Source of the DNA: a virus
DNA length: 23,028 nt
IMG/VR virus record: IMGVR_UViG_3300023170_000183
Span: 1 to 23,028 of that record
Strand: one strand, 5' to 3'
A program made the position numbers and the translations under genes. Shown here in pieces: positions 2,946 to 13,398 of the stretch. Every line of letters starts with the position of its first letter. Within the stretch, counting starts at the first letter, position 1. The notes beneath the pieces are model-generated. The model was not told the DNA's origin, searched no databases, and worked only from the letters and a program-made list of their open reading frames with translations.

Positions 2946-2962
2946 AAAAAGCAAGTCCTTGC
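2946..2962 (-). terminator. Short hairpin plus T5 before start codon
   Basis: On the minus strand GCAAG-GA-CTTGC is followed by TTTTT and, four bases later, the ATG of the holin-like gene. The two-base loop means the real stem is probably four pairs (GCAA/TTGC), so it is weak. The 5' arm fills the gap between the late box (2963-2970) and the expected transcription start. Confidence 0.4.
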
Positions 2963-3294
2963 TATTTATCAAACAGTTTAATAAAATATTCAGCGTCAAT
3001 AACTGCTAATGGTTTTTTACCATTCTTTTTCATAATCACAAGTGGTTCATACTTACCACAATTTGCTTTTGCTTGCTCATATGCTTCCCACACATTGAGT
3101 TTCTCTACGTTTTTACACTCAATAGAATGAGGAAATCTTTCTCGTGCCGCACGCGCCATGATCAGGTCTTCTCCACCTGCTCCCATAGAACGAGACTCAA
3201 TATCCTCAGGATGTATATCCAGTGCTTCAATAAGTTTCTGTCTCACCCATTGCTGCAACCGTCTACCCTTTGCTTTAGCAGACTGGGCACGCAT
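2962..3294 (-). CDS. PD-(D/E)XK nuclease, possibly resolvase-like, 110 aa
   Basis: A compact PD-(D/E)XK-type nuclease. The N-terminal helix is basic (AKAKGRRLQQWVRQKLIE), then SRSMGAGGEDLIMA supplies the first acidic residue (Asp43), and SIECKN supplies Glu59 and Lys61, giving the D...ExK pattern. The rest is a short alpha/beta tail ending KLFDK. Size and layout resemble small archaeal-type or phage Holliday-junction resolvases and VRR-like nucleases, so DNA-junction or recombination-intermediate cutting before packaging is plausible, but substrate is inferred. The ATG directly follows the T7 run of a hairpin, so the only Shine-Dalgarno-like sequence (AGGGG) lies in that hairpin's 3' arm. T4's own resolvase gene 49 is also controlled by a hairpin in this way. 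Confidence 0.78.
   Translation of the reverse strand: MRAQSAKAKGRRLQQWVRQKLIEALDIHPEDIESRSMGAGGEDLIMARAARERFPHSIECKNVEKLNVWEAYEQAKANCGKYEPLVIMKKNGKKPLAVIDAEYFIKLFDK
2963..2970 (-). promoter_or_regulatory. Late promoter, GATAAATA
   Basis: Seven of eight matches to the T4 late box, 21 nt before the ATG at 2941. It is made from the last codons of the nuclease gene (GAT AAA TAG, Asp-Lys-stop). Confidence 0.65.
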
Positions 3295-3322
3295 AAAAAA
3301 ATACCCCTATTACTAGGGGTAT
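3295..3322 (-). terminator. Terminator/RBS hairpin with GUAA loop and T7 run
   Basis: On the minus strand a perfect 9-bp stem (ATACCCCTA with TAGGGGTAT, 3322-3314 and 3309-3301) closes a GTAA tetraloop and is followed by seven T, then ATG. It can end transcripts from the upstream 365-aa gene. Its 3' arm contains AGGGG, the only ribosome-binding-like sequence for the nuclease gene, so folding would also hide the start. The 5' arm overlaps the late box. Confidence 0.8.
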
Positions 3323-3327
3323 TTATC
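3320..3327 (-). promoter_or_regulatory. Late promoter, GATAAATA, overlapping the hairpin
   Basis: Seven of eight matches to the T4 late box. If transcription starts seven bases after the box, as at T4 late promoters, the first base is the G of the GTAA loop, so late RNA lacks the hairpin's 5' arm. It is 25 nt before the ATG at 3294. Confidence 0.7.
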
Positions 3328-3342: not shown

Positions 3343-4440
3343 TCAAACGCCTTTAACACCAGGACCTGCTTTGTACATGGGGGAACCATCCTTTAGTTTC
3401 TTACCCTTCAGGTATCCTTGATATGCAGGTGTGTTACCTTTCATATCAGCAACGTTAACCTGCATGGGGAAAGTGAGTTCATAGATGTCCTGCATCATTT
3501 CCTCAATGTAATCAGGATTCATGTTGGCAAGGATTGTCATGCCACCTTCAAAGTCTCTAGCAAAACCCTGCTCGACTAGGTTCTCTGCAAGATCGCTAGC
3601 AATTTGATAAGCATCTTCGCCCATAGGCTTTTTCTTGCCCTTCTTAGCGGGGGGATCAAGTCTATTTGCTAGATTTCTAGCACCCTTCTCTGCATCACCC
3701 AGTTTTCTGTTGGCATAAGATACTGCTCTTTCTTTTGCTGCAGAACCCTTTGCCTTGATTTTTCTTGCAGTGTCAACGACAGACTTGACAACGCCGCTGG
3801 ACTGACGATCTGCCTTGTTAACTTGGCGACGTGCTCTGTTGATTGCGCCACCAGGAGATGCAACAGATCTTAGAGCAGATGCTAGTTTCTTCTTAGCGCC
3901 TGCCTTAGCAGCACTGACTGCACCACCTGCTGCTTGCTTTGCTCTCTCAGCACCAGCACCTGCAGCATCACGTGCCCTTTGGACTCTAGCAGCAGTGCTC
4001 TTGGAAGAGTCACCAGGTTTCATTTCAACCTTGTTTGCCATACCCTTGATGGCAGCCTTTGCCATGCTACCAACTTTCTTGATAGCACCCTTTACACGCT
4101 CAACACGTGCCGCACGCTTCTCTGCACGTGCTGTTTTTTCTGCTTCAGATCTTTCAGACTTGCGCTTCTCAACTCTTGCCTTGGCAGCAAGTGCGCTGCC
4201 TTGACCGTAAGTAACCTTTGCCTCAACAAGTTCAATGGCATGAATTTCAAATGCTTCTAGCGATTCATTCAAAGAGTAACCGAAGTCTTCTAGTTCCTCG
4301 CTAACTTGAAGAACAACGTCCTCAATATCCTCATCGCTCAGAAGATCAATATACTCAAGATTGTCTTCTTGTAGTTCCTGACGTAGTTCTGCGTCATAGA
4401 CAGAAGCATACGCTTCTCTAAGATTAGATAGACCTGCCAT
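3343..4440 (-). CDS. Basic Lys/Ala-rich structural (internal head?) protein, 365 aa
   Basis: Three zones. Residues 1-75 are acidic and helical. Residues about 80-270 are extremely Lys/Arg/Ala-rich and low in complexity (AEKTARAEKRAARVERVK and similar), as in DNA-associated or scaffold proteins. Residues about 275-365 form a folded tail with GEDAYQIASDLAENL and VADMKGNTPAYQGY, a segment I recall from cyanophage virion proteins. Sites resembling the T4 prohead protease consensus (L/I-x-E before A/G) occur at LRE|A (residues 7-10) and LVE|A (71-74), consistent with a processed head-core protein. A perfect TATAAATA late box lies 33 nt upstream, with AAGG just before the start. The gene ends before the terminator at 3295-3322. 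Exact virion role is not known. Confidence 0.78.
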   Translation of the reverse strand: MAGLSNLREAYASVYDAELRQELQEDNLEYIDLLSDEDIEDVVLQVSEELEDFGYSLNESLEAFEIHAIELVEAKVTYGQGSALAAKARVEKRKSERSEAEKTARAEKRAARVERVKGAIKKVGSMAKAAIKGMANKVEMKPGDSSKSTAARVQRARDAAGAGAERAKQAAGGAVSAAKAGAKKKLASALRSVASPGGAINRARRQVNKADRQSSGVVKSVVDTARKIKAKGSAAKERAVSYANRKLGDAEKGARNLANRLDPPAKKGKKKPMGEDAYQIASDLAENLVEQGFARDFEGGMTILANMNPDYIEEMMQDIYELTFPMQVNVADMKGNTPAYQGYLKGKKLKDGSPMYKAGPGVKGV

Positions 4441-12283: not shown

Positions 12284-13151
12284 CTTCAATAACGTCTCTT
12301 ATCCAGGATTTAAACATTTCCCCGTCTTCTGTCACACAAATTAAGTGGTTTGCTCCGCGCCTAATAATCTCTCCGACCTGCCCATTATTATTCTCTACCC
12401 TGGCACCAATCTTCAAAATATCACCATCGACATACTGTTCACGAACTGTTCTTTCTTCTACAGGGATATAATTAATAGAAGAGAAGTTGTAGAGATCGCC
12501 GTTATACTTACTAACAAGTTCTTCGGTTTGATTTGCTCTACTTTGTCGGACAACAATATTAATATTGGTGTGTCCCATTTCATTAAATGTTTGCAGAACA
12601 TCAAAAATAGTTTCTGCGTCCTTATCATCAATAATACTTTCCGCAAACTCAGGATATGCTTCCTTTAAAGATTGGATGTCTGCACTCCTGCTAGGAAATA
12701 CAAAATATTGTCCGCCAACATTTTCTAATGTAGCAAACATATTCTCTGCAACTGAAGCATCGTCAAATCTATCAAATGCAACGGTCAGCGCACGACCACC
12801 TTCTGCAGGAGGATTTACAGTTGCTCCACTACCTGCTGCACGACCCGATTGCTTTTGTGCGACATCAGCGGTTGTTACTGATGGTCCGCTTCTTCTTGCA
12901 TCAGTAGAATCACTGCTTGCTCTCTGATCAATTTGAGGTTCTACTGCTTGACCTTCAGGAGAACCTTGATCTGCGGACTTATTTTTTTGCCCGTCAAAAA
13001 ATACCAGTTTACCTTTGATTGTTTTCGCTTTCAAAGCACCCTGTTTGTCATACCAATCCCCATGTCCATCCCCCACAAGTCCCAGTCTCTTTGCCTGCTG
13101 GGATGCGGAGGTGGTTTTTGCCTCAGTAACAAACTGACTAAAATTTTTCAT
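12279..13151 (-). CDS. Putative internal head protein with capsid-targeting-like N-terminus, 290 aa
   Basis: Begins MKNFSQFVTEAKTTSASQQA, a close match in pattern to the T4 capsid-targeting sequence MKTYQEFIAEA, with a VTE|A site near the prohead protease consensus. Next comes a short module (KRLGLVGDGHGDWYDKQG, then FFDG) seen in cyanophage proteins. A Ser/Gly/Ala-rich linker (about 55-125) follows, then an alpha/beta middle domain (about 125-220). The C-terminal module (GARVENNNGQVGEIIRRGAN, then MFKSWIRDVIEV) looks like an SH3/KOW-type small barrel, also common in these phages. The start is fixed by an ATGA overlap with the previous gene. It probably is packaged in the head; function inside is unknown. 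Confidence 0.75.
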   Translation of the reverse strand: MKNFSQFVTEAKTTSASQQAKRLGLVGDGHGDWYDKQGALKAKTIKGKLVFFDGQKNKSADQGSPEGQAVEPQIDQRASSDSTDARRSGPSVTTADVAQKQSGRAAGSGATVNPPAEGGRALTVAFDRFDDASVAENMFATLENVGGQYFVFPSRSADIQSLKEAYPEFAESIIDDKDAETIFDVLQTFNEMGHTNINIVVRQSRANQTEELVSKYNGDLYNFSSINYIPVEERTVREQYVDGDILKIGARVENNNGQVGEIIRRGANHLICVTEDGEMFKSWIRDVIEV

Positions 13152-13369
13152 GTATCAAGTTGAGCGAGAATATCGTCTTGGTGGTCCATAATGTACTTAA
13201 GACCTAGTGTCCTAAGTCTAGTGTATTTTGTCTTGTCTTCCTTATATTTATCTAGGGAAGATACGTAGAACTGTGCAAAATGCTGTATGCGCTTGGATTT
13301 TAGCATTTTACGCATATTTTTCATGCGATTTCGATACTTCGCAATAAAGAGGCCAATAATCTCTTCCAT
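13148..13369 (-). CDS. Small basic protein, 73 aa
   Basis: Starts MEEIIGLFIAKYRNRMKNMR and continues KMLKSKRIQHFAQFYVSSLD, ending DILAQLDT. Strongly basic in the middle and probably helical, with no known family. The ATG immediately follows a hairpin and T7 run, and the only ribosome-binding-like sequence (AAGGGG) lies in the hairpin's 3' arm, so translation should depend on late transcripts that start inside the hairpin. Its stop overlaps the next gene's ATG (ATGA). Confidence 0.72.
   Translation of the reverse strand: MEEIIGLFIAKYRNRMKNMRKMLKSKRIQHFAQFYVSSLDKYKEDKTKYTRLRTLGLKYIMDHQDDILAQLDT
13245..13252 (-). promoter_or_regulatory. Possible late promoter, GATAAATA, inside coding sequence
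   Basis: Seven of eight matches to the late box, about 94 nt before the ATG at 13151 and within the codons Asp-Lys-Tyr of the upstream gene. Distance and location make it less certain than the others. Confidence 0.28.
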
Positions 13370-13391
13370 AAAAAAATCCCCTTACGGGGAT
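13370..13391 (-). terminator. Terminator/RBS hairpin with GUAA loop and T7 run
   Basis: On the minus strand ATCCCC pairs with GGGGAT around a GTAA tetraloop, followed by seven T and the ATG at 13369. It could end read-through from the replication cluster (mazG side) and hide the AAGGGG ribosome site. It has the same loop, T-run length and placement as the element at 3295-3322. Confidence 0.78.
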
Positions 13392-13398
13392 ATTTATT
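13391..13398 (-). promoter_or_regulatory. Late promoter, AATAAATA, abutting the hairpin
   Basis: Seven of eight matches to the late box, 21 nt before the ATG at 13369, overlapping the upstream gene's stop (CAG TAA TAA). The predicted start is inside the GTAA loop, so late RNA lacks the hairpin's 5' arm. Confidence 0.7.

Follow-up and report, generated by a model that had tools for sequence, protein, structure and literature searches.

A putative nuclease gene in a T4-like cyanophage is preceded by a late promoter box and a terminator-like hairpin that share bases and run directly into the start codon. The window analysed here, a virus record of 23,028 nt (~23 kb; IMGVR_UViG_3300023170_000183), has the make-up of a T4-like cyanophage, with nrdA, nrdB, a primase gene and a gene of the translation-repressor family; nrdA and nrdB precede the nuclease gene on its own strand. 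The module at 3327-3292 (Table 1) is confirmed as real and not a chance arrangement, and we think it probable that it works as a self-insulating late promoter. A polymerase arriving from upstream would copy the whole hairpin and be halted by the U-tract immediately ahead of the AUG; in read-through copies the Shine–Dalgarno (SD) sequence AGGGG would be locked in the stem, a second block wherever the 3′ arm is purine-rich. A polymerase carrying the phage late sigma factor (gp55 homologue) would open the shared bases and start at ~3314, giving a late RNA that, without the 5′ arm, would have no terminator and would carry an at least partly freed SD in a leader of 20 nt. The nuclease would thus be expressed with late transcription and independently of its neighbours. 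We infer the start site, termination, timing and translational effect from the arrangement of the module, and the termination strength of the module hairpins is likewise judged from their sequence.

Table 1. Features of the two modules and of the genes next to them (window positions).
Feature	Position	Strand	Basis
T4-type late promoter box GATAAATA	3320..3327	minus	sequence; predicted -13 to -6
Hairpin 5′ arm AAATACCCCTA; overlaps the 3′ part of the late box	3314..3324	minus	stem search, folding
Loop GTAA	3310..3313	minus	sequence, folding
Hairpin 3′ arm TAGGGGTATTT; contains the SD-like AGGGG	3299..3309	minus	sequence, folding
Seven T, putative intrinsic-terminator U-tract; first three able to pair with the box	3295..3301	minus	sequence
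ATG of the 110-aa nuclease-like gene	3294-3292	minus	sequence
Nuclease-like gene, 110 aa; carries GED and ECK motifs, belongs to PHROG 244, matches Pfam PDDEXK_15 weakly	2962..3294	minus	profile searches
365-aa Ala/Lys-rich gene; stop 15 nt 5′ of the late box	3343..4440	minus	ORF
Second late box AATAAATA, overlapping the stop codon of the upstream ORF	13391..13398	minus	sequence
Second hairpin ATCCCC-GTAA-GGGGAT; predicted late +1 at 13385, first loop base	13376..13391	minus	folding
73-aa ORF directly after the T-run, ATG at 13369	13148..13369	minus	ORF

Read along the minus strand, GATAAATA is followed by CCCCTA, GTAA, TAGGGGTA, seven T and the ATG. The GC-rich stem, short loop and U-tract of an intrinsic terminator are all present, and the late box sits at the foot of the 5′ strand of the hairpin, which is the hallmark of a switch of the gene 49 type (box in or at the foot of that strand). 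An earlier note on this DNA had described a perfect stem of 9 bp; the stem is indeed perfect but comprises 11 bp (3324-3314 paired to 3309-3299), since the T-run contributes its first bases, which pair with AAATA of the late box. The minimum free energy of the 76-nt module stretch is −19.7 kcal/mol (z −2.64), and 4 of 200 shuffles were equally good. AGGGG is, as had been proposed, the sole SD-like run within the 35 nt 5′ of the nuclease ATG. A search of the window against Rfam at gathering scores gave no match. T4 late promoter boxes begin at −13 (accessible text of PMC2988020), and since they are numbered in this way the predicted late +1 is 3314, the sixth base past the box and the last base of the 5′ arm. 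This is one base earlier than the start at the first loop base (3313, 7 nt past the box) that had been suggested. The consequence drawn from that suggestion stands by prediction, as an RNA beginning at the last base of the 5′ arm would lose the hairpin and be unable to form the stem.

The box itself is strongly overrepresented where a promoter would be expected. ATAAATA occurs 13 times in the window, always on the minus strand, against an expected mean of 5.45 on both strands, and none of 100 shuffles reached 13. In the stretch 8-60 nt upstream of 3257 script-called ORFs from 16 phage genomes and the window, ATAAATA was counted 355 times in sense and 12 times in antisense orientation (20.9 expected by density) and CTAAATA 197 and 10 times (12.5 expected), the corresponding numbers being 32 and 13 for GTAAATA and 39 and 28 for TTAAATA. 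[A/C]TAAATA, which thus exceeds its genome density ~16-17x with a strand bias of ~20-30:1, was therefore taken as the late box. It is consistent with the late promoter motif NATAAATA of S-PM2 (reported in the accessible part of PMC2984593), and the nuclease gene has what defines a Kyanoviridae late promoter, a NATAAATA box in sense orientation upstream of the gene. It could be argued that the hairpin is a plain terminator whose resemblance to a late box is fortuitous, the nuclease being expressed from elsewhere; not every T4 late-box match is a proven promoter, according to the accessible text of PMC2988020. The enrichment and the strand bias speak against such an accident, and so does the presence of the box in 49 of 101 orthologues of the nuclease, 45 of them with the hairpin; we regard this explanation as very improbable.

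The orthologues comprise 21 phage records and 80 IMG/VR loci. The nuclease was detected by tblastn in 74 phage records, of which 21 had their upstream region examined, and the IMG/VR loci are the best 80 of at least 597, so that the sample leans to close relatives; loci found via the module's own pattern were excluded from the count. Box and hairpin occur together in 45 of the 101 (4/21 phage records, 41/80 IMG/VR loci), a full unit being defined as box, hairpin of at least 5 bp and T-rich tail, and the stem is GC-rich in 42 of these and AT-rich in three. This joint retention bears out the initial suggestion that the start codon belongs to a single unit with the late box and the terminator-like hairpin. 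Four orthologues have the box only and 52 have no box, two of the latter carrying an AT-rich inverted repeat at the ATG. The full unit is absent in 56 of the 101, many of which have their start codon within the upstream ORF or directly behind it and could rely on translational coupling instead. At two others of the 52 without a box (L020 and L110) a GC terminator is located ~30 nt further upstream, without a late box.

Conservation of the stem was followed in 35 distinct modules, pattern-found ones included (36 were listed, one being a second reading of another). Alignment was possible for 29 of them, five out-of-register leaders and one in-register near-copy being left out. Pairing is kept in 94.7% of the 319 cells and in at most 63.0% when the arms are slid against each other. 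Four stem pairs are invariant, and so are four consecutive T that follow the stem; a single stem pair is open in 12 of the 29 modules. Changes on both sides were seen at three stem pairs, corresponding to 7 of the 319 cells; this number of cells was reached in none of 500 shuffles and the three pairs in 46 of 500. The covariation with a retained late box, proposed earlier as a check in relatives, is thus borne out as to the pairing, which is mostly kept, but both-sided changes are few, and from these alignments the covariation is present but modest. Applying the T4 spacing, late RNA would retain 0-1 bp of the stem in 24 of the 35 modules and 2-5 bp in 11, and the median predicted folding energy of the 35 leaders at 25 °C changes from −15.4 kcal/mol for the read-through RNA to −2.4 kcal/mol for the late RNA.

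Alternatively, the terminator of the upstream gene and the late promoter may both be of the usual kind and share bases merely to save space, without any selected switch. Phage genomes are compact, AAATA suits the foot of a bidirectional terminator, and over half of the orthologues do without the unit. However, the upstream ORFs of the loci with a module fall into 10 blastp clusters (54 of 57 contexts, pattern-picked loci included, with two clusters holding 39), so the unit appears to go with the downstream nuclease gene whatever precedes it, and the spacing of box and hairpin to the ATG is tight. Moreover, among 21 arrangements of the box letters in eight genomes and the window, ATAAATA adjoins terminators 7 times compared to 0-2 for the others, although five of the nine box matches in this count (C-type included) are nuclease sites. 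We therefore consider mere compaction improbable. In the larger set, 9 of the 552 [A/C]TAAATA boxes lying 8-60 nt upstream of ORFs in the 16 genomes and the window adjoin a terminator-like hairpin, whereas 200 dinucleotide shuffles of the promoter-to-ATG stretches gave a mean of 0.75 and a maximum of 4; the independent count is four, since the nuclease accounts for five of the nine and its presence was the criterion by which 14 of the 16 genomes had been chosen.

The self-insulating late promoter has its closest relative in T4 itself. A blind hairpin scan of T4 produced 65 terminator-like sites, two of them adjoining an ATG, and one with a late box, gene 49 (ATG 46855); besides gene 49, the scan found no T4 site that combines late box, terminator and abutting ATG. 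As this sole match is a documented hairpin-controlled gene, the late switch is of a known kind. In T4 e, soc, 49 and I-TevI the SD or the AUG is locked in a helix, from which the late RNAs of e and I-TevI escape because the 5′ part of the helix is absent (accessible parts of PMC3014915 and PMC2988022). The comparison with e, soc and 49 made in the earlier note holds best for gene 49, where the blind scan revealed the identical layout: ATAAATA directly followed by the hairpin, a short T-rich tail and the ATG of a gene for a DNA-junction nuclease. The two differ in that T4 gp49 (endonuclease VII) belongs to Endonuclease_7 and the protein of the window does not, and in the T4 tail, TTTATT, a weaker U-tract than the seven T found here. 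This difference fits the proposal that the present module adds a terminator to the T4-type switch, and the design is not special to the nuclease, as it is also found before other genes of related viruses. The leaders of T4 e, soc, I-TevI and Aeh1 mobE share the SD-masking hairpin but are described as being under translational control, with no U-tract terminator in the stem mentioned in the accessible parts of PMC3014915 and PMC2988022. The anatomy of the module, its recurrence, the co-retention of box and hairpin, the mostly kept pairing and the gene 49 layout are direct observations.

Given this kinship, the hairpin might mainly hide the SD, as in the documented T4 cases e, soc, 49 and I-TevI (PMC3014915, PMC2988022, in their accessible parts), with the T-run serving as an A/T-rich spacer that causes little termination. 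The SD-like run of the window sits in the 3′ arm, an SD-like purine run follows the predicted start in 32 of the 35 late modules, and the only T4 match is gene 49. Folding of five leaders (window, window 13391, S-PM2, Sf-FR1 and T4 gene 49; at 25 °C, T4 at 37 °C) predicts all five SD bases to be paired in the read-through RNA of the window, S-PM2 and Sf-FR1; in window 13391 and T4 gene 49 the first of the five is an exception. In the predicted late RNA of the window, however, the SD bases are unpaired with probabilities of 0.66, 0.63, 0.03, 0.05 and 0.08; the values go up to 0.97 in S-PM2 and range over 0.05-0.65 in Sf-FR1, 0.02-0.31 in 13391 and 0.27-0.92 in T4. SD release is not clear-cut, as in these predictions the freed arm finds a new partner in the coding region. 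In addition, the nuclease leaders of S-CREM2 and S-H34 have kept box, hairpin and T-run with a pyrimidine-rich 3′ arm, and thereby separate termination from SD masking. The sigma70 modules described below point the same way, 53 of the 59 with an ATG lacking an SD-like run after the predicted start, and so do the four invariant T. Masking of the ribosome site, which had been part of the initial proposal, thus finds no support as a general rule, and a purely translational switch seems rather unlikely. Since an SD-like run downstream of the predicted start is missing from two of the nuclease versions and from most sigma70 ones, the common denominator would seem to lie in insulation through termination more than in SD masking.

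The 110-aa protein matches PHROG 244 (E 2.1e-22), whose label, RusA-like Holliday junction resolvase, is an annotation only; the PHROG 244 profile also matches the control genomes of Haloferax volcanii and Sulfolobus acidocaldarius. The GED and ECK motifs are invariant across 24 nuclease sequences, all of which match PDDEXK_15 at E up to 1 (best 3e-6), the protein of the window reaching 0.019, below the cut-off. The motifs look PD-(D/E)XK-like, and the RusA-like label may accordingly be wrong. A sequence search of the PDB gave no match at E up to 1. The predicted structure is of modest confidence (pLDDT 68), its fold matches in the PDB are weak and mixed, and the comparison yielded no match at E 0.001. 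We also considered the nuclease as a replacement of endonuclease VII and rejected this in its simple form: PF02945 (endonuclease VII) was found in only 3 of 20 non-T4 records, and these three, S-PM2, S-CREM2 and S-H34, have both enzymes while Syn9 and P-SSM2 have neither. The 365-aa gene between nrdB and the nuclease, whose transcripts would be ended by the hairpin of the 3314 region, gave a single match in the phage collection, a weak one to Synechococcus phage B23 with 22% coverage, and is also present in close IMG/VR relatives, e.g. L001.

A second copy of the module is found at 13398-13367 of the window, with six T between hairpin and ATG. For the 73-aa ORF that follows, neither the phage collection nor PHROGs contain a match. 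Three IMG/VR copies exist with 100% identical protein and identical leader, the latter identity being therefore uninformative on conservation. At ~21418-21392 (minus strand) a terminator hairpin, GGGGG-ATCCACA-CCCCC followed by TTTTT, abuts the ATG of an Hsp20-like gene; it has a poor -10-like TGATTATGT at its foot. Elsewhere, S-CREM2 contains two copies of the stem GAGGGTGAGAGATCACCCTC (134706 and 135074, scan index), 368 nt apart, that bracket gp166 and each have a late box and a T-run, perhaps a duplicated cassette. A near-identical block around ATAAATACCCCCGTAAGGGGG with its T-run is present in eight IMG/VR loci (L188, L204, L207, L217, L238, L241, L242 and L266). The genes after it encode 465-478 aa with different N-termini and represent two PHROG families among three tested, as if the cassette had been kept while the downstream genes change.

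Promoters placed at terminators that adjoin a start codon are more widespread. A hairpin scan of the 16 related genomes, 14 of which were chosen for carrying the nuclease, and the window gave 868 terminator-like sites, 60 adjoining the ATG of an ORF of at least 40 aa. A promoter core is present at the hairpin foot in 22 of these 60 and in 19 of the 808 others (Fisher p 5e-17), made up of the late box (8/60 versus 2/808, five of the eight being nuclease sites) and a sigma70-type -10-like hexamer (14/60 versus 17/808). Removal of the five nuclease sites leaves 17/55 versus 19/808 (p 1e-12) for both classes and p 4e-10 for the sigma70 class alone; the late form is rare outside the nuclease (3/55 versus 2/808, p 0.002). 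With shuffled upstream bases, 0.1 late and 2.2 sigma70 cores would be expected at the 60 sites, where 8 and 14 are observed, and 1.1 and 22.2 at the 808 others, where 17 sigma70 cores are observed; the sigma70 excess is thus limited to terminators followed by an ATG. In 13 of the 14 sigma70 cases the hexamer is preceded by TG with one base in between (extended -10), and 8 of 83 extended -10 elements adjoin a terminator (dinucleotide shuffles: mean 0.8, maximum 4). The late box can also lie inside the hairpin (5/60 versus 6/808, p 4e-4). Five of these six non-abutting sites, in S-PM2, Sf-FR1, Syn1, S-H9-2 and S-RIM32, lie 17-20 nt upstream of a gene for 276 aa whose products resemble one another at the N-terminus, that of S-PM2 being annotated as neck protein gp13; at the S-PM2 site (L532; 66789-66833) GATAAATA occupies the loop of the terminator hairpin upstream of neck gene 13, and the same is seen in four relatives identified by N-terminus.

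In IMG/VR, the late-like pattern (NTAAATACCYCC...) has at least 125 matches in at least 120 loci; among the matches listed, 95 adjoin an ATG, 50 of them that of the nuclease, and the base before TAAATA is A in 82, C in 22, T in 12 and G in 9. Ten other proteins after such modules include a head-tail adaptor, a homing endonuclease and a member of a GTP-binding-domain family, the rest being without assigned function. From 18 genomes a strict box-stem pattern recovered the nuclease sites in S-PM2 and Sf-FR1 and nothing else, and it had no match in T4, Syn9 and P-SSM2. The sigma70 pattern has 119 IMG/VR matches, 85 adjoining an ATG and with 47 different N-termini, and ten named proteins downstream include thioredoxin-fold and 2OG-Fe(II) oxygenase proteins. 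As a control, the sigma70 pattern, and only this one, was run on 84,980 species genomes of bacteria and archaea; it matched 10 times, never next to an ATG and never in a genome titled as cyanobacterial. With the sigma70 spacing of seven bases from the -10 hexamer to the start, 70 of 84 distinct modules would retain 2-4 of their 5-9 bp, and escape from the hairpin would thus be less complete than in the late form; an SD-like run follows the predicted start in 6 of the 59 sigma70 modules with an ATG.

We consider the case evenly poised for a general class of promoters in T4-like marine phages that start inside a terminator, either with sigma70 (extended -10 at the stem foot, usually no SD-like run) or with the late sigma (box at the stem foot or within the loop, as before neck gene 13), and would shield units from read-through without extra DNA. 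This estimate is unchanged without the nuclease sites, on which the sigma70 class, its main support, does not depend. Other ways of limiting read-through are known. In mobE and segF, intrinsic terminators in the 5′ part do so (PMC2988022) and resemble the module in placing a stop signal at the start of a nuclease gene, but they lie within the coding region and no base-sharing promoter is described in the accessible part of that paper. Insulating terminators before promoters, as in synthetic circuits or the end terminator of Tn916, also block read-through into the next unit; in the accessible parts of PMC5162094 and PMC11658703 promoter and terminator appear to be separate, whereas here bases are shared. 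In the titles and abstract openings of the open-access literature we recognised no account of cyanophage genes preceded by a promoter whose bases are shared with a terminator. What is new is the breadth of the design across related genomes, the late switch itself being of the known kind. It suggests an insulation rule for dense phage genomes, in which promoter and terminator share bases, so that the RNA would contain the stop signal or lack it depending on where transcription starts. It would carry the gene 49 case of T4 over to marine viruses and to promoters of the host sigma factor, predicts the 5′ and 3′ ends of the mRNAs, and could have a practical offshoot in an insulated-promoter part of ~35 nt.
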